DNA from: Alphaproteobacteria bacterium
GTDB lineage: Bacteria > Pseudomonadota > Alphaproteobacteria > Rhodobacterales > Rhodobacteraceae
DNA length: 64,000 nt
Direction of reading: 5' to 3'
Assembly: GCA_030429495.1 (NCBI GenBank)
Contig: JAUIFH010000001.1
Span: forward strand, 310,001 to 374,000
Both the position numbers and the translations under genes were made by a program. Of this stretch, positions 13,054-27,799 are shown one piece after another. The notes under the pieces are model-generated. The model was not told where the DNA came from and did not search any database. It saw only the letters and a program-made list of their open reading frames with translations. The first letter of the stretch is position 1. Each line of letters begins with the position of its first letter.

Positions 13054-13953
13054 TCACGGCATCCGGCGTTCGATCTCCGTGCTTCGCGCGATCAGCCAGT
13101 CGCGGAACGCCCGCGCCGGGCGGCGGAGTGACGCGCTGCCGGGATAGACGAGGTGGTAGTATTCCAGCCCGGCGACCGCGACGCCGGGCAGACAGGAAAC
13201 GAGTCCCTGCGCCCGCATCACCGGATCGCTCGCCGGCGCACGGGCCAGCGCGATGCCGGTGCCATGGCCGGCCAGCGCCGCCGCCATGATCGTGGAATCG
13301 ACCATCACGAAGCGCGCGCCCGCGCCGAGGATCTTCAGCGCCTCGAAGACATGCGGCCAGCCCGCGCGATGCGTCGCCACCTCCAGAAGCGGGTGCGCCA
13401 GTAGATCGGCCGGGGTCCGGATGCTGGCCGCGATCTCCGGCGTCGCGACCGGATAGAGCACCTCGCCGAACAGCCGGTCATGCGCCGACCCATAGGCCGA
13501 GGGCGCGCCGAAGACGATCTTCAGGTCGCTGAAGGCGTGGGCGAAATCCTCGACCGCGTTGCCCGTCGTCAGGTTCAGCGCGATACCGGGATGCCGCTCG
13601 GTGAAATCGCTGTAGAGCGGCGCGAGGATACCTTGCGCGAAGATTAAGACCGCCTGCACGTAAAGCCGCTCTTCCCGCGCCCGGCCGAAGAGCCCCTGGG
13701 TCGAGCTTTCGAGCGAGACGAGCGACATCTGCACCGAGGGCAGATAGGCCCGCCCGGCCTCGGTCAGCGTCACCGCATGGGCATGCCGCGCGAAAAGCGC
13801 CCGGCCCAGATGACCTTCCAGCGCCTTGATCTGCTGGCTGACCGCGGGGGGCGACATGTTCAGCTCCGCCGCCGCGCGGGCGAAGCTCTCGGTCCGCGCC
13901 GCCGCCTCGAAGACGCGGAGCCAGTTGAGCGAGGGGATGCGGGTCGGCTCCAT
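13054..13953 (-). CDS. LysR-family regulator (GcvA-like), likely regulator of the PhyH/HD oxygenase pair
   Basis: 299 residues. The N-terminus (PSLNWLRVFEAAARTESFARAAAELNMSPPAVSQQIKALE) is the GcvA-type HTH in which the LysR domain begins with a LxxLRxFEAAAR motif, and a LysR substrate-binding domain follows. It is divergent from the PhyH gene. A perfect 23-bp palindrome starts 6 bases upstream of its ATG, so it probably represses itself and controls the dioxygenase operon. LysR regulators are also reported beside phosphonate phnY/phnZ-type genes. Confidence 0.85.
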   Translation of the reverse strand: MEPTRIPSLNWLRVFEAAARTESFARAAAELNMSPPAVSQQIKALEGHLGRALFARHAHAVTLTEAGRAYLPSVQMSLVSLESSTQGLFGRAREERLYVQAVLIFAQGILAPLYSDFTERHPGIALNLTTGNAVEDFAHAFSDLKIVFGAPSAYGSAHDRLFGEVLYPVATPEIAASIRTPADLLAHPLLEVATHRAGWPHVFEALKILGAGARFVMVDSTIMAAALAGHGTGIALARAPASDPVMRAQGLVSCLPGVAVAGLEYYHLVYPGSASLRRPARAFRDWLIARSTEIERRMP

Positions 13954-13958
13954 GAGTA

Positions 13959-13981
13959 GAGGATAAGCTCAGCTTATCCTC
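13959..13981. promoter_or_regulatory. Perfect 23-bp palindrome, candidate LysR operator
   Basis: Two 11-base arms, GAGGATAAGCT and AGCTTATCCTC, flank a single central C. The site lies 6 bases before the lysR start and 77 bases before the PhyH start. A palindrome this long and exact is unlikely by chance. Position and symmetry suggest the regulator's binding site, and binding there would also block lysR transcription or translation start. Confidence 0.7.
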
Positions 13982-14058
13982 AGCGGCAAGAGATACCGTT
14001 TTGAACCGCGCCCTCCCCGCGCTAGCGTCACCATCAAGCGACGGACAGGAGACAGCCC

Positions 14059-14940
14059 ATGTGTGTGCCCTTGATCGACGGCCGCCTCTCGGAGGCCGAG
14101 AAGGCGCGGTACTGGGAAGACGGCTACCTCTTCCCGATCCAGGCGATCCCGGCCGAAAAGGCCCGCGCCTGGCGCTCGGAGCTTGAAGCGATCGAACATG
14201 ACTGGCTCGACGCCGGCCTGCCGCTGCCCTTGAACACCTACAAGCGCGTCAACGCCCATTGCGTGCTGCCGTTCGCCCACCGGATCGGCACCGACCCCGC
14301 GATCCTCGACATCGTCGAAGGCATCCTCGGCCCCGATCTCCTGATCTACGGGGTGGAGTTCTTCATCAAGGAGCCGCGCACGAAGCACAAGGTTTCCATG
14401 CATCAGGACCTGACCTACTGGGGCCTCGGCGCGATCGACGGCATGGTGACGATGTGGCTGGCGCTCTCGCCCTCGACCCGCGCCTCTGGCTGCATGAATT
14501 TCGTCCGCGCTAGCCACCTCAACCCGATCCTGCCGCACGAGGACACTTTCGCCGAGGACAACCTTCTCAGCCGCGGGCAGGAAGTGAAGGTCGATGTCGC
14601 GCCGGAAGACCGCGTGCCGATCGAGCTGATGCCGGGCCAGATCAGCCTCCATCACGGTCTGACGATCCACGGCTCCGGCCCCAACACCACCGACGACCGC
14701 CGCATTGGCGCTGTCGTGCGCTACGTCACGCCCGAGATCGCCCAACTCGTCGGCGACAAGGACTACGCGATGATTGCCCGCGGCGCTGACCGCATTGGCA
14801 ATTTCATCAACTACGCCCCGCCCACGGCGAATTTCACGCCCGCAAGCCTTGCGCTTTACGACGAAATCCGCTCGGCTCAGGCCACGTTCCTGATGAAGGG
14901 CACGACGAACGCCAAGGGGCTCTACGCGGAGGCATGCTGA
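14059..14940 (+). CDS. PhyH-family Fe(II)/2-oxoglutarate dioxygenase (PhnY-like)
   Basis: 293 residues of the phytanoyl-CoA dioxygenase family. The iron-binding facial triad is visible as His115 and Asp117 in MHQDLTYW and the distal His204 in LTIHGSGPN, with a downstream Arg for 2-oxoglutarate. MTMWLALSPSTRASGCMNFV is the usual strand before the distal His. PhnY of the PhnY/PhnZ phosphonate pathway belongs to this family and hydroxylates 2-aminoethylphosphonate at C1. The next gene overlaps by one base and encodes an HD-domain protein like the PhnZ partner. The pair therefore looks like a hydroxylase plus oxygenative C-P (or similar) cleavage system. The substrate is inferred, not shown. Confidence 0.8.
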   Translation: MCVPLIDGRLSEAEKARYWEDGYLFPIQAIPAEKARAWRSELEAIEHDWLDAGLPLPLNTYKRVNAHCVLPFAHRIGTDPAILDIVEGILGPDLLIYGVEFFIKEPRTKHKVSMHQDLTYWGLGAIDGMVTMWLALSPSTRASGCMNFVRASHLNPILPHEDTFAEDNLLSRGQEVKVDVAPEDRVPIELMPGQISLHHGLTIHGSGPNTTDDRRIGAVVRYVTPEIAQLVGDKDYAMIARGADRIGNFINYAPPTANFTPASLALYDEIRSAQATFLMKGTTNAKGLYAEAC

Positions 14941-15554
14941 TGGACAAGGTCAGCTTCACCCGGATGAAGGACGGCACGCGGGAGGAATACGAATTCCTCA
15001 CCGCCCACGAGATCGACCATACGAAACACACCGCCGACCGACTCCTGACAGCGCTCGTCGACCTCGACAAATCGCTCTCCGGCTACCAGATCACCCGGCT
15101 TGGCCATTCGATCCAGTCGGCCACGCGGGCATGGCGCGACGGCGCGGATACCGACTGGGTGGTCTCGGCGCTCCTCCACGACATCGGCGACATCTACGCG
15201 CCCTACAATCACGACGAATACGCGGCCACCATCCTCAAGCCCTTCGTGCGCGAGCAATGCACCTGGGTCGTCCAGACCCATGGCGATTTCCAGATGCTCT
15301 ACTACGGCCATCATGTCGGCGGCGACCAGCACAAGCGCGACCGCCACCGGGGCAACCCCTATTTCGACGACTGCGCCGAGTTCTGCGAACGCTGGGACCA
15401 GGCGAGCTTCGACCCCGACTACGACACCCTTCCCCTCGACTTCTTCGCGCCCATGGTACGCGCGGTCTTCGCCCGCAAACCCTATGACCCGACGGTCATC
15501 CGCGCGGGCGAACGGGTGCCCCTGACAGACGCGACGGTGGCCGCCTCACGCTGA
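14940..15554 (+). CDS. HD-domain protein, candidate mixed-valent di-iron oxygenase (PhnZ/TmpB-like)
   Basis: 204 residues. GHSIQSATRAWRDGAD and ALLHDIGD give His56, His80 and Asp81. The 24-residue His-to-HD spacing equals that recalled for PhnZ (His34 to His58). Further candidate ligands are His91 or His114, His124 and Asp153 (in ERWDQ). HD oxygenases of this type (PhnZ, TmpB, MIOX) cleave C-P or C-C bonds with O2, while most other HD proteins are phosphohydrolases. The preceding PhyH dioxygenase favours the oxygenase reading. ATG 14940 is chosen because GGAGG lies 7 bases upstream and the PhyH stop overlaps it (TGATG); ATG 14934 is the alternative. A hairpin repeat follows. Confidence 0.7.
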   Translation: MDKVSFTRMKDGTREEYEFLTAHEIDHTKHTADRLLTALVDLDKSLSGYQITRLGHSIQSATRAWRDGADTDWVVSALLHDIGDIYAPYNHDEYAATILKPFVREQCTWVVQTHGDFQMLYYGHHVGGDQHKRDRHRGNPYFDDCAEFCERWDQASFDPDYDTLPLDFFAPMVRAVFARKPYDPTVIRAGERVPLTDATVAASR

Positions 15555-24861: not shown

Positions 24862-26232
24862 TCAGTTCTTCCCGATCGCCTGCAGAACCCGGTCCAGGCT
24901 TTTGCCCTGCAGGGAGGTTGAGGGCGCGGTCTTTACCGCATTGTAGTAGGCTTCGGGGTCGTAGATCGGGACGCGGAGGTTGAGGTAGTCCGCCGTCAGC
25001 AGACCCATAGACGACAAAAGCGAATAAAACGCTACCTGAAGATCTGCCTCGGCGGTGATCTTGCTGGCGCGAGCGTCAAGCAGCGACTGTTCGGCATCCA
25101 GCACGTCGAGCGTCGTGCGCGCACCGAGCTTCGCCTCTTCCTGAACGCCCTGATAGGCGATGGTCGCAGCCGAAATCTGGCGTTCCGTAGCGACAATCTG
25201 GGCGCGCGCGGCCTCAATGTCCGCCCAGGCGCTGCCGACGCCGCGTGTCACCACGACGCTCGTCTGCAACAGCGCCGAGCGCGCGGCGTCCCGGTCGGCA
25301 ATTGCGCCGCGATGCGCGGCCGACAACGCCCCGCCGGCATAGATCGTTTGCTTCAGTTCGATACCGACCACCGGTGTGTCAGGGCCACCGTCATTGAACG
25401 TAAGCCCGGCGCGACCATTCAGCTCGGGCATCCGTTCGGCCGCAGCACGCTTGATCTGGAGGTCGGCGGCGCTGGCCTGGTGCTGGGCCTGCCGAATCGC
25501 CGGATGGCCGCGCTGCGCGATCGCGCGGGCGTCGTCGAGCGTGCGCGGCAGTTGCGGTGCGGGCGGCGCAACCGAGAGATTGGTCGGATAGTGGCCGACC
25601 GCCGCGCGGTAGAATTCGCGTGCGGCGACCAGATCGCCCTGAGCGGCGGCCAGGCCCGCACGTGCCTGCGCAAGGCGCGCTTCGGCCAGTGCGACGTCGG
25701 TCCGCGTAACCTCGCCCACGTCGAACTGGTCCTGAGTCGCGCGCAGCGTTTCCTCGAGCAGGCGCACGGAATTTTCGTTGATCGAGACGCTTTCGGTCGC
25801 GCTGCGGACGCCAAAATAGGCGGATACCGCGTCGAAGAGGACTTGCTGCTCGATCCGGACCAGCGCCTGCCGCGTGGCCAGAACCGCTTCCTCGGCGATC
25901 TCGACGCCAAGCTGCGAGCGGCCGAAATCGTAGAGCATCGTGCTGCCCTGAAGTGTCAGGGCGAGCGAGATATCGTCCCCTTGCGCGGAATCGGTGAGGG
26001 TGGAGTTCAGGACCCACTGGATCACAGGGCGCAGGGCTGCAACGGCGGACGCGACATCCTCGTCGGCCGCGCGGAGCACGGCGCGGTTTTGTTCGATGAG
26101 GTTCGATTCCTTGTAGGCAGAGACCAATGCGTCGGCGAGGGTCTCTGACCGTGCCGGCGCCGCGGCAATGCCGAAGGCACAGAAACCGGCGATGAGAGCG
26201 AGCCTGATCCTGCGATGCTTGATTGTCGTCAT
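24862..26232 (-). CDS. tolC: TolC-family outer membrane efflux protein
   Basis: 456 residues with an N-terminal signal peptide (basic start, then LALIAGFCAFGIAAAPARSE) and two repeated alpha-helical/beta-barrel halves typical of outer membrane efflux proteins (ETLADALVSAYKESN at the start; KLGARTTLDVLDAEQSLLDARA is the highly conserved second-half motif). It forms the trimeric outer-membrane duct of type I secretion or efflux pumps. No matching inner-membrane pump is adjacent. ATG 26232 is used because it precedes the signal peptide directly. It lies 35 bases downstream of pcm, probably in the same operon. Confidence 0.9.
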   Translation of the reverse strand: MTTIKHRRIRLALIAGFCAFGIAAAPARSETLADALVSAYKESNLIEQNRAVLRAADEDVASAVAALRPVIQWVLNSTLTDSAQGDDISLALTLQGSTMLYDFGRSQLGVEIAEEAVLATRQALVRIEQQVLFDAVSAYFGVRSATESVSINENSVRLLEETLRATQDQFDVGEVTRTDVALAEARLAQARAGLAAAQGDLVAAREFYRAAVGHYPTNLSVAPPAPQLPRTLDDARAIAQRGHPAIRQAQHQASAADLQIKRAAAERMPELNGRAGLTFNDGGPDTPVVGIELKQTIYAGGALSAAHRGAIADRDAARSALLQTSVVVTRGVGSAWADIEAARAQIVATERQISAATIAYQGVQEEAKLGARTTLDVLDAEQSLLDARASKITAEADLQVAFYSLLSSMGLLTADYLNLRVPIYDPEAYYNAVKTAPSTSLQGKSLDRVLQAIGKN

Positions 26233-26267
26233 CTCTTGATCCTCTGAGGCTGGCGCCCGTTGGTCCT

Positions 26268-26921
26268 TCAAAGCCGGAAGGGCCGCTGAGCCTCGAACCC
26301 GGTCAGCACCGGTGCCGATGCGTTGAACGCGAAGCGCCATGTCATGCGGCCATCGCTCTTGTGTCCGATCCGGCACATGCCGAGCGCGCCGTCCATGAAC
26401 AGGCATGCGATGCGGCCGCCTTCCTTGAGTTGATCGAGGATCGCGTCGGGAATGGTTTCCGCCGCGCCCTGAACCGCGATCACGTCATAGGGTCCGTGCT
26501 TGGGCGCACCTGCCGCCAGCGGCCCTTCGATGACGGCGGCATTGTCGGCCCCGGCCTGGGCCAGCCGCTCTTCGGCCTGCTGGGCAAGGCCGGCATCCTC
26601 CTCGACCGCGACGACGGCTTCGGCCATGCGCGCGATGATGGCGGTCGAATATCCGAGCCCACAGCCGAGATCGAGAACGAGATCGTGCGGCTGGATGTCG
26701 AGCGTGTCGAGCATCTTCGCGAGGGTCCGCGCCTCCAGCATCACACGACCGCCGCCGATATCGATATTGCCGCCGACATAGGCCGCTTCGCGCTTGCTGC
26801 TGGGCACGAACGCCTCGCGCGGCACGCTCAGCATGGCCTCGATGATAGGGAACTTCGTCACGTCGTTCGGCCGCACCTGAGTGTCGACCATCATCGTACG
26901 GCGGACGGCAAAATCAATCAT
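26268..26921 (-). CDS. pcm: Protein-L-isoaspartate O-methyltransferase family protein
   Basis: 217 residues. The SAM-binding core is clear: [19 protein letters not shown] (motif I), [18 protein letters not shown], and [28 protein letters not shown]. The front part [18 protein letters not shown] and [19 protein letters not shown] fits the PCMT family branch common in Rhodobacterales next to tolC. It would repair isoaspartyl residues, but this branch has an altered substrate loop, so the activity is uncertain. ATG 26921 is chosen; GTG 26930 would add three residues. Confidence 0.85.
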
Positions 26922-27037
26922 GTGCGGCACTCATGGATGGGGTATCGGGCTTTATGACGTCTTGCCATATTCCGGTGGGGGGGGCAACGGGTCAGGACGC
27001 CGCGCCGGCACCGGCGTCAGGCCCGAAGCCGCTCTGG

Positions 27038-27799
27038 TCAGAGGTATCCGTCAGCCCGGAAACTCAGGTGCTGGGACTTCCCGATGATCAGGTGGTCGTG
27101 CAGTACGATACCCATGACAGAAGCGGCATCCTGAACCTGCCCGGTCATGGTGATGTCCTGCTGCGAGGGGGTGGGATCGCCGGACGGGTGGTTGTGGACG
27201 AGGATGATCGCGCTGGCGTTCAGCTCAAGCGCCCGCTTGACCACCTCGCGCGGATAGACCGGGACGTGGTCGACCGTGCCGCGCGCCTGCTCCTCGTCGG
27301 CGACAAGCACGTTCTTGCGGTCGAGATAGAGGACGCGGAACTGTTCGGTCTCGCGGTGGGCCATGGCGGTCTGGCAATAGTCCAGCAACGTTTGCCACGA
27401 CGACAGCACGGTTCGGTTCATCACCTTCGCCCGTGCCAGCCGGTGCGCGGCTGCCTCGACGATCTTCAGTTCCTGGATGACGGCGTCGCCTGCGCCGTGA
27501 ACCTCGGCAAGACGCGCGGGCGGGGCTGACAGTACACGATTGAAATCGCCGAACACCTCAAGCAGCCGTGCCACGAGCGGTTTCACGTCCTGGCGGGGGA
27601 TTGCCCGGAAGAGGACAAGCTCCAGCAGTTCGTAATCCGGCATCGCCGTTGCGCCGCCTTCCATGAAGCGGGCGCGAAGCCGCTTCCTGTGGTCCCGGAT
27701 ATAGGAGGGAAGGCGGCCGGAAGGCAAAGCTGCCTCAACCGCCTCATCGTCCTGGAAGAGCGGCATCGGGGCTTCGTGGAGGGCGGGAGCGGGACGCAT
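27038..27799 (-). CDS. radC: RadC/JAB-domain protein
   Basis: About 253 residues. The C-terminal MPN/JAB domain has the metal site with a catalytic Glu upstream (VVKRALELNASAIILVHNHPSG) and HNHPSGDPTPSQQD (JAMM: H-x-H-x7-S-x2-D). A UPF0758-type helix-hairpin-helix region precedes it (LLELVLFRAIPRQDVKPLARL-like, and LAEVHGAGDAVIQELKI). RadC proteins were once linked to repair, and in Rhodobacterales radC is grouped with CtrA-controlled DNA-uptake genes. The start is uncertain (27820, 27799 or 27766); 27799 is used. A CtrA-type TTAACCAT lies just upstream. Confidence 0.85.
   Translation of the reverse strand: MRPAPALHEAPMPLFQDDEAVEAALPSGRLPSYIRDHRKRLRARFMEGGATAMPDYELLELVLFRAIPRQDVKPLVARLLEVFGDFNRVLSAPPARLAEVHGAGDAVIQELKIVEAAAHRLARAKVMNRTVLSSWQTLLDYCQTAMAHRETEQFRVLYLDRKNVLVADEEQARGTVDHVPVYPREVVKRALELNASAIILVHNHPSGDPTPSQQDITMTGQVQDAASVMGIVLHDHLIIGKSQHLSFRADGYL

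Follow-up and report, generated by a model that had tools for sequence, protein, structure and literature searches.

A LysR-linked gene pair encoding a PhyH-family hydroxylase and an HD-domain protein lies at positions 13,054 to 15,554 of the window, the 64-kb stretch G000:C6:310001-374000 analyzed here, which belongs to a 3.83-Mb Rhodobacteraceae genome. We tentatively read this cassette as a LysR-switched two-step oxidation system that would act more likely on a trimethylammonium acid than on a phosphonate and would release glycine betaine by carbon-carbon (C-C) cleavage. It is very likely that the HD protein is an oxygenase, and it probably acts after PhyH in one pathway; C-C rather than carbon-phosphorus (C-P) cleavage is favored with somewhat less confidence, and a trimethylammonium substrate stands at about an even chance. 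A sequence-only reading of the region had proposed a LysR regulator, a PhyH dioxygenase and an HD-domain oxygenase directed at an organophosphonate or a related compound. The coordinates, frames and families of the three genes were as it described, and the pairing of an Fe/2-oxoglutarate-type hydroxylase with an HD-domain diiron-type oxygenase under their own LysR is supported by the families, the fold match, the ligand residues and the operator. The features are as follows (aa, amino acids; ORF, open reading frame):

13054..13953, minus strand: LysR-type regulator, GcvA-like, 299 aa (PF00126, 5.4e-23; PF03466, 1.3e-20)
13958..13982, strandless: operator-like palindrome AGAGGATAAGCTCAGCTTATCCTCA, within the LysR-PhyH gap
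13964-13976: core of the palindrome, TAAGCTCAGCTTA
14059..14940, plus strand: PhyH-family Fe(II)/2-oxoglutarate-type hydroxylase, 293 aa (PF05721, 2.9e-26, 93.5 bits against a cut-off of 22)
14940..15554, plus strand: HD-domain oxygenase-type protein of a putative new subfamily, 204 aa (the ORF opens at 14934)

ATG 14940 was preferred over ATG 14934 as the HD start because GGAGG is present at 14928-14932 and several homologues have starts that favor it. Given this start, the one-base overlap with the PhyH stop codon claimed earlier holds (TGATG). HD residue numbers below are counted from ATG 14934; for the likely start at 14940, 2 must be subtracted.

Fold and predicted metal ligands of the HD protein

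We modeled the HD protein with AlphaFold2 (AF2) from 42 family rows (mean predicted local distance difference test score, pLDDT, 95.2) and searched the Protein Data Bank (PDB) with the model by Foldseek. All 10 matches at E<=0.001 were chains of PhnZ or TmpB, their TM-scores ranged from 0.54 to 0.71, and the best was PhnZ 4n6w (E 2.0e-6; TM 0.63/0.71); the match after these chains reached only E 0.079, and no hydrolase appeared at E<=0.001. The predicted fold resembles PhnZ and TmpB and not the HD phosphohydrolases, the grouping that the sequence-only reading had named as telling against an oxygenase.

To compare residues we aligned 142 window-type HD proteins, without deduplication, with 30 canonical Phn-HD proteins, the genome's own TmpB, 2 MIOX proteins and 5 other HD domains of the same genome. 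The Phn-HD set came from 71 matches, of which 30 loci were used; removal of 4 mis-extracted fragments and addition of the own TmpB gave 27 full-length rows. Locus L008 was left out of an HD alignment because its match crosses a stop codon. The six predicted metal ligands are present in the alignment: H58, H82, D83, H93, H116, and D155 occur in 142/142 window-type proteins and align with the Phn-HD ligands. The ligands of PhnZ are His34, His58, Asp59, His80, His104, and Asp161 (PMC7916636). The PhnZ-like His-24-HisAsp spacing was confirmed (H58, H82-D83). The HxxQ motif (Q61) was found in 142/142 window-type proteins, 27/27 full-length Phn-HD rows and 2/2 MIOX rows, versus 0/5 of the other PF01966 HD domains of this genome, which were not identified individually. 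The H...HD...H...H...D pattern by itself is also compatible with a dinuclear hydrolase; we read the HD protein as an oxygenase because the fold, the six ligands and HxxQ are common to PhnZ and TmpB.

Two family assignments were tried and rejected. PF05153 scored 21.6 bits, under its cut-off of 25, which removed MIOX, and HD hydrolase membership was dismissed on the structure matches and on HxxQ. PF01966 itself gave 21.2 bits for the protein, under the cut-off of 22, and 22.4 bits, just over it, in the genome search.

The HD protein appears to belong to a new HD-oxygenase subfamily. Window-type HD proteins were detected in 82/289 class genomes at E 4.1e-25 or better and in 83/289 at E 1e-5, the last one (8.2e-6) being doubtful, and in 59/398 phylum genomes at 1e-20; canonical Phn-HD was found in 61/289 class genomes at E 1e-20. 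The HD-domain oxygenases named in a 2020 review are MIOX, PhnZ, and TmpB (PMC8177086), and further PhnY/PhnZ versions are given in a 2023 review (PMC10574752). A literature search of partial coverage found no paper that describes this HD subfamily or reports an HD protein within a carnitine operon. Public names of the subfamily are uninformative: 15 plasmid relatives carry the names HD domain (3), inositol oxygenase family (1), phosphohydrolase (1), hypothetical (1) or no name beside the match (9).

The PhyH hydroxylase and the LysR operator

The intact PhyH iron triad claimed from the sequence (His115, Asp117, His204) is present here and, together with R215, which we take to be the 2-oxoglutarate arginine, in 23/23 aligned HD-adjacent PhyH proteins. 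With these residues and its PF05721 score, the window protein shows the HxD...H triad and arginine expected of the PhyH family. Its nearest solved chain is 6zyk (1.9e-38), named merely Monooxygenase and presumably ThoJ. The family is large (89/289 class genomes at E 1e-10). In the tree, 22/23 HD-adjacent PhyH proteins form one group (support 90/92) with one non-adjacent protein, apart from paralogues; the PhyH of L147 falls outside this group, and the L041 PhyH, a 129-aa piece, was excluded. Fe/2-oxoglutarate halogenases have lost the Asp of the metal triad. Assignment to that class (TIGR01762) was rejected at 47.7 bits against a cut-off of 226.3 and with D117 present.

The operator core TAAGCTSARCTTA occurs exactly at a single site of the own genome, between LysR and PhyH; with one mismatch allowed there is one more site, and a reversed-pattern control gave 0. 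Across 187 loci the exact core was found in six, one of them from Kiloniella (L116), and in 6/6 it lies between LysR and PhyH, 95-99 bases before the PhyH start. The LysR-PhyH loci L121, L129, and L131 have no core within one mismatch, and a promoter/terminator scan returned 0 promoters and 0 terminators. Because the palindrome core is exact at one genome site, in the LysR-PhyH gap, the sequence supports a LysR that would be devoted to the PhyH-HD cassette. The best NCBIfam match of this LysR is GcvA, at 207.6 bits under the cut-off of 288. The chromosomal surroundings of the PhyH-HD pair differ between genomes, which suggests that the two genes travel together.

Substrate pocket, partners and operon contexts

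According to the 2020 review, a YxxE loop of PhnZ and TmpB gates the active site and binds the amino group (PMC8177086). In PhnZ, Tyr24 and Glu27 stand at His-10 and His-7 relative to His34, and the residues aligned with them here are L48 and Y51. Tyr occupies position 48 in 6/142 and Glu position 51 in 2/142 window-type proteins; the full-length Phn-HD rows have Tyr in 27/27 and Glu in 23/27. The sequence-only reading was correct that the PhnZ gating pair is altered; the residues it named, Y51 and T54 (His-7 and His-4), are offset by three. PhnZ His62 contacts the substrate hydroxyl (PMC7916636). At its position, Asp (D86) is found in 140/142 window-type proteins and His in 27/27 full-length Phn-HD rows. 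The position of PhnZ Lys108, presumably a phosphonate contact, is Gln (Q120) in 141/142 and Lys in 27/27, respectively, and a third Lys position (26/27 Phn-HD rows; one row lacks the position) is Phe in 142/142. Residues typical of the window family (n=142) are Arg55 (139), Arg135 (140), Trp111 (138), Phe119 (142), and Tyr123 (135). Since basic residues are replaced by Asp, Gln and Phe and Arg and aromatics are gained, such a pocket would suit a zwitterion.

Phosphonate hidden Markov models (HMMs) scored far under cut-off on the HD protein: TIGR03276 33.4 bits (cut-off 214.6), NF049941 28 bits (300) and NF052439 23.9 bits (300). A separate TmpA-TmpB pair is encoded elsewhere in the genome (L005, G000:C13:about 25951-27600), with TmpB at 352 bits (cut-off 300) and TmpA at 564.8 bits (cut-off 400). 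Among the scanned neighbors no phosphonate model was found except for the TauD partners described below (nine scans of ten proteins, not a systematic search). With YxxE absent, His62 and Lys108 changed, these scores, the separate TmpAB and the carnitine, choline and methylamine contexts below, the proposed organophosphonate substrate is unsupported, and counting the window-type HD subfamily as phosphonate metabolism would be mistaken.

We examined 186 window-type HD loci; the counts are not freed of duplicates. Gene prediction used a home-made caller based on codon usage, which leaves starts and small genes uncertain; the caller returned no HD gene for L035, where it was added by hand, or for L180. 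One or a few members of each neighbor type were scanned for families, the remaining labels being assigned by BLAST to these. Within the HD gene run, the partners were PhyH (22 loci), a carnitine-type operon (16), TauD (8), a GbcA-like Rieske protein (5), a small Rieske protein (4), a fatty acid (FA) hydroxylase (3), a DIOX_N 2-oxoglutarate oxygenase (2; L170 scanned, L168 by homology), FA hydroxylase plus PhyH (1), PhyH plus Rieske (1), and divergent TauD (2, one contig counted twice). PhyH adjoins HD in 24/186 loci, and both this adjacency and the spread of the subfamily exceed chance. Two Rieske loci, L147 and L148, carry tandem HD genes, L147 also having a PhyH of divergent sequence; on a Phaeobacter plasmid (L035), the genes after HD encode a sterol-desaturase/FA-hydroxylase protein and a PanB-family protein.

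The HD tree holds 159 rows, down from 184 after removal of same-label rows that were 92% or more identical; it is a quick tree with Shimodaira-Hasegawa-like approximate likelihood ratio (SH-aLRT) support only, and its long branches meet at the outgroup. The clade of the window HD (53 rows, SH-aLRT 99) includes PhyH (16), carnitine (8), Rieske (3), FA hydroxylase (2), FA hydroxylase plus PhyH (1), small Rieske (1) and TauD (1) loci and 21 rows with no partner; a deep clade of 40 rows has zero labeled partners. Exchange of the hydroxylating neighbor around HD would be expected if HD is a shared second step.

Of the 14 TauD rows next to window-type HD, ten group in a single clade (100/99) whose sister is the TmpA group (95/97 jointly). 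Outside that clade fall L302, the fragment L306, and the divergent L107/L126, which are one contig counted twice. Six scanned TauD partners scored 334-353 bits on TmpA (cut-off 400), L278 reaching 423, and the same six scored 250-266 bits on gamma-butyrobetaine dioxygenase (cut-off 414.75). Such TauD genes number 73 in 46/289 genomes. Canonical Phn-HD is the direct neighbor of 22 of them and a window-type HD is within 1.5 kb of another 8, which leaves 43 with neither.

The carnitine-type operons (16/186 loci) encode HD proteins 70-75% identical to the window HD. In Mesorhizobium, Hoeflea and Tabrizicola-type loci, HD lies between a keto-acid cleavage enzyme (presumably BKACE) and carnitine 3-dehydrogenase, with an acyl-CoA dehydrogenase, a CoA ligase and a crotonobetainyl-CoA-hydratase-like protein downstream. 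Only L060 was scanned, the 15 others being labeled by BLAST; its carnitine 3-dehydrogenase scored 596.6 bits, over the cut-off of 592. The Mesorhizobium carnitine dehydrogenase is 362-379 aa long and the Tabrizicola-type one 485-502 aa; the L060 protein matches positions 1-339 of a 495-position fused model.

Related contexts recur outside these operons. In L278, from another class, the neighbors of the TauD-HD pair include a GbdR-like regulator, a keto-acid cleavage enzyme, carnitine-dehydrogenase-like and choline-binding-like proteins, and a protein that matches the thioesterase portion of the fused enzyme. In L090, a regulator of the GbdR type, an acyl-CoA dehydrogenase and a ligase come about 4 kb after an HD-Rieske pair. 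In the plasmid locus L036, TauD-HD is accompanied by genes annotated as a choline-binding protein, a choline dehydrogenase and an aldehyde dehydrogenase, and a CoA-transferase III gene lies upstream. HD precedes an FMN oxidoreductase and an MTTB-family gene in L066, and in L138 a keto-acid cleavage enzyme and a protein resembling carnitine dehydrogenase (343.6 bits, cut-off 414) lie nearby. The window locus itself has no carnitine dehydrogenase or keto-acid cleavage genes in its cluster.

Proposed chemistry, rival explanations and known systems

In the chemistry that we propose, PhyH would hydroxylate a C-H bond of a small substrate using 2-oxoglutarate and O2. The HD protein, putatively of the mixed-valent-diiron type with the MIOX/PhnZ/TmpB fold, would bind the new hydroxyl at its diiron site; an HD superoxo species would abstract the carbinol hydrogen, and the adjacent bond would then break. 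Superoxo hydrogen abstraction is reported for PhnZ and MIOX (PMC8177086, PMC7916636). The substrate class may be gamma-butyrobetaine, carnitine or beta-alanine betaine, and the conversion would run from R-CH2-CH2-N(CH3)3+ through R-CH(OH)-CH2-N(CH3)3+ to glycine betaine and an R fragment. In the reactions of both TmpA and gamma-butyrobetaine dioxygenase, the hydroxyl goes onto the second carbon from the ammonium. Hydroxylation there and cleavage beside it would yield glycine betaine regardless of what else the molecule carries. A wider proposal, which we hold to be somewhat doubtful, is that a widespread HD diiron oxygenase subfamily uses O2 to cleave a C-C bond of hydroxylated trimethylammonium acids, giving glycine betaine, as a non-phosphonate counterpart of TmpB. 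Its partner would have been exchanged among five oxygenase families, the 2-oxoglutarate enzymes PhyH, TauD and DIOX_N and the Rieske and FA-hydroxylase proteins, which are not 2-oxoglutarate enzymes; the LysR-PhyH-HD cassette would be its form in roseobacters. Assigning its substrate could reveal an oxidative route within the cycling of quaternary amines in the sea and in soil.

Several observations weigh against a trimethylammonium substrate and C-C cleavage. The own carnitine operon of the genome (L313, G000:C17:about 87400-94800; carnitine 3-dehydrogenase 783.6 bits) encodes, in order, a keto-acid cleavage enzyme, carnitine dehydrogenase, a 253-aa protein (SDR-like by eye), acyl-CoA dehydrogenase, ligase, and a CaiD-like protein; it has no HD and is on another contig than the cassette, so HD is not needed for the carnitine route. 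The carnitine-operon HD proteins form one clade and may therefore have one origin. In L060 the keto-acid cleavage enzyme (230.8 bits, cut-off 382), the hydratase (317.1, cut-off 500) and the acyl-CoA dehydrogenase are under cut-off, as are the carnitine-dehydrogenase-like (413.8, cut-off 414) and choline-binding-like (257.1, cut-off 379) proteins of L278. No labeled partner was found in the HD gene run of 122/186 loci, and in the window the cassette has only housekeeping-type neighbors, e.g. an ORF of 1043 aa downstream of HD, from 15683, which we take to be valS from its sequence type. Other HD contexts do not fit: HD is in a urate/allantoin operon in L125 and, by neighbor homology, in L124; it is beside EutB in L095 and after purF in 19 SAR11-type loci (within L094-L119, plus L128), preceding gshA in 14 of those loci or their kin. 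Co-occurrence of HD with carnitine dehydrogenase (at least 367 bits; 12/37 HD genomes versus 4/105) was dropped as a lifestyle effect: it carries no weight because the Phn-HD control matches the enrichment (11/30 versus 5/112 genomes). The comparison used 142 genomes, assumed to be G000-G141, 44 of which are listed. Direct C-C cleavage of a carnitine-like substrate also leaves its electron balance to be accounted for. As to the L125/L124 operon, it encodes urate oxidase, a polysaccharide-deacetylase-family protein, allantoicase and ureidoglycolate lyase, with HD proteins 62-63% identical.

The same two-step chemistry may serve another substrate, such as an alpha-hydroxy acid from alpha-oxidation, a sulfonium such as dimethylsulfoniopropionate (DMSP), or a purine-derived compound. 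Alpha-hydroxylation is the classical reaction of PhyH enzymes, there are marine relatives, and the urate/allantoin and purF contexts would fit; we nevertheless think this rather unlikely, as carnitine, choline and methylamine-family surroundings are found repeatedly, with several different hydroxylases, and most TauD partners stand next to TmpA in the tree. A phosphonate pathway, in which PhyH would make a 1-hydroxyphosphonate and HD would cleave C-P to phosphate, shares its fold and ligand set with PhnZ and TmpB, has a hydroxylase partner present and gains from the one TauD partner (L278) over the TmpA cut-off. It is improbable in view of the missing YxxE, the Asp, Gln and Phe in place of His62, Lys108 and the third Lys, the low HMM scores, the separate TmpAB, and the scanned neighbors noted above, where phosphonate models matched TauD partners only in a search that was not systematic.

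That PhyH and HD are separate functions under a common regulator would agree with roseobacter-type loci in which HD stands upstream of valS without an adjacent PhyH (L044, L045, L046, L052, L065, and L086) and with a PhyH lacking HD beside it (L183). The one-base overlap and the retention of the pair in different chromosomal contexts make this quite improbable. Least credible is an HD phosphohydrolase that stands beside PhyH by chance: PF01966 is borderline and one of the 15 plasmid relatives is annotated as a phosphohydrolase, but all ten significant structure matches are oxygenases, HxxQ is common to the oxygenases and missing from the five other HD domains, and 22 of the 23 adjacent PhyH proteins group together. 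We concluded that a trimethylammonium acid oxidized in two steps, with C-C cleavage by the HD protein, is the best explanation of the cassette, held tentatively as stated at the outset.

Among known systems, TmpA-TmpB, which converts trimethylaminoethylphosphonate to glycine betaine, likewise joins a 2-oxoglutarate hydroxylase to an HD oxygenase with the same predicted fold and six ligands, and the 10/14 TauD partner rows of window-HD relatives are the sister clade of TmpA. It differs in that the window HD reaches only 28 bits against the TmpB cut-off of 300, lacks YxxE and is changed at the His62 and Lys108 positions, and in that the hydroxylase here is PhyH, an above-cut-off TmpAB pair being located elsewhere in the genome. 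PhnY-PhnZ, acting on 2-aminoethylphosphonate, also places a 2-oxoglutarate hydroxylase before an HD oxygenase and provides the best structure match, whereas identity in that match is 21-22% and the gate and basic residues are absent from the window HD. The carnitine dehydrogenase/keto-acid cleavage operon houses the closely related HD proteins of the 16 loci, although the copy in this genome does not. MIOX (myo-inositol oxygenase) has an insert between HD and the next His that is absent here, and its HDxGK reads HDxGD in the window protein; it shares the six ligands and HxxQ (2/2 class MIOX rows), and its C-C cleavage is the type of reaction that the HD protein may perform.

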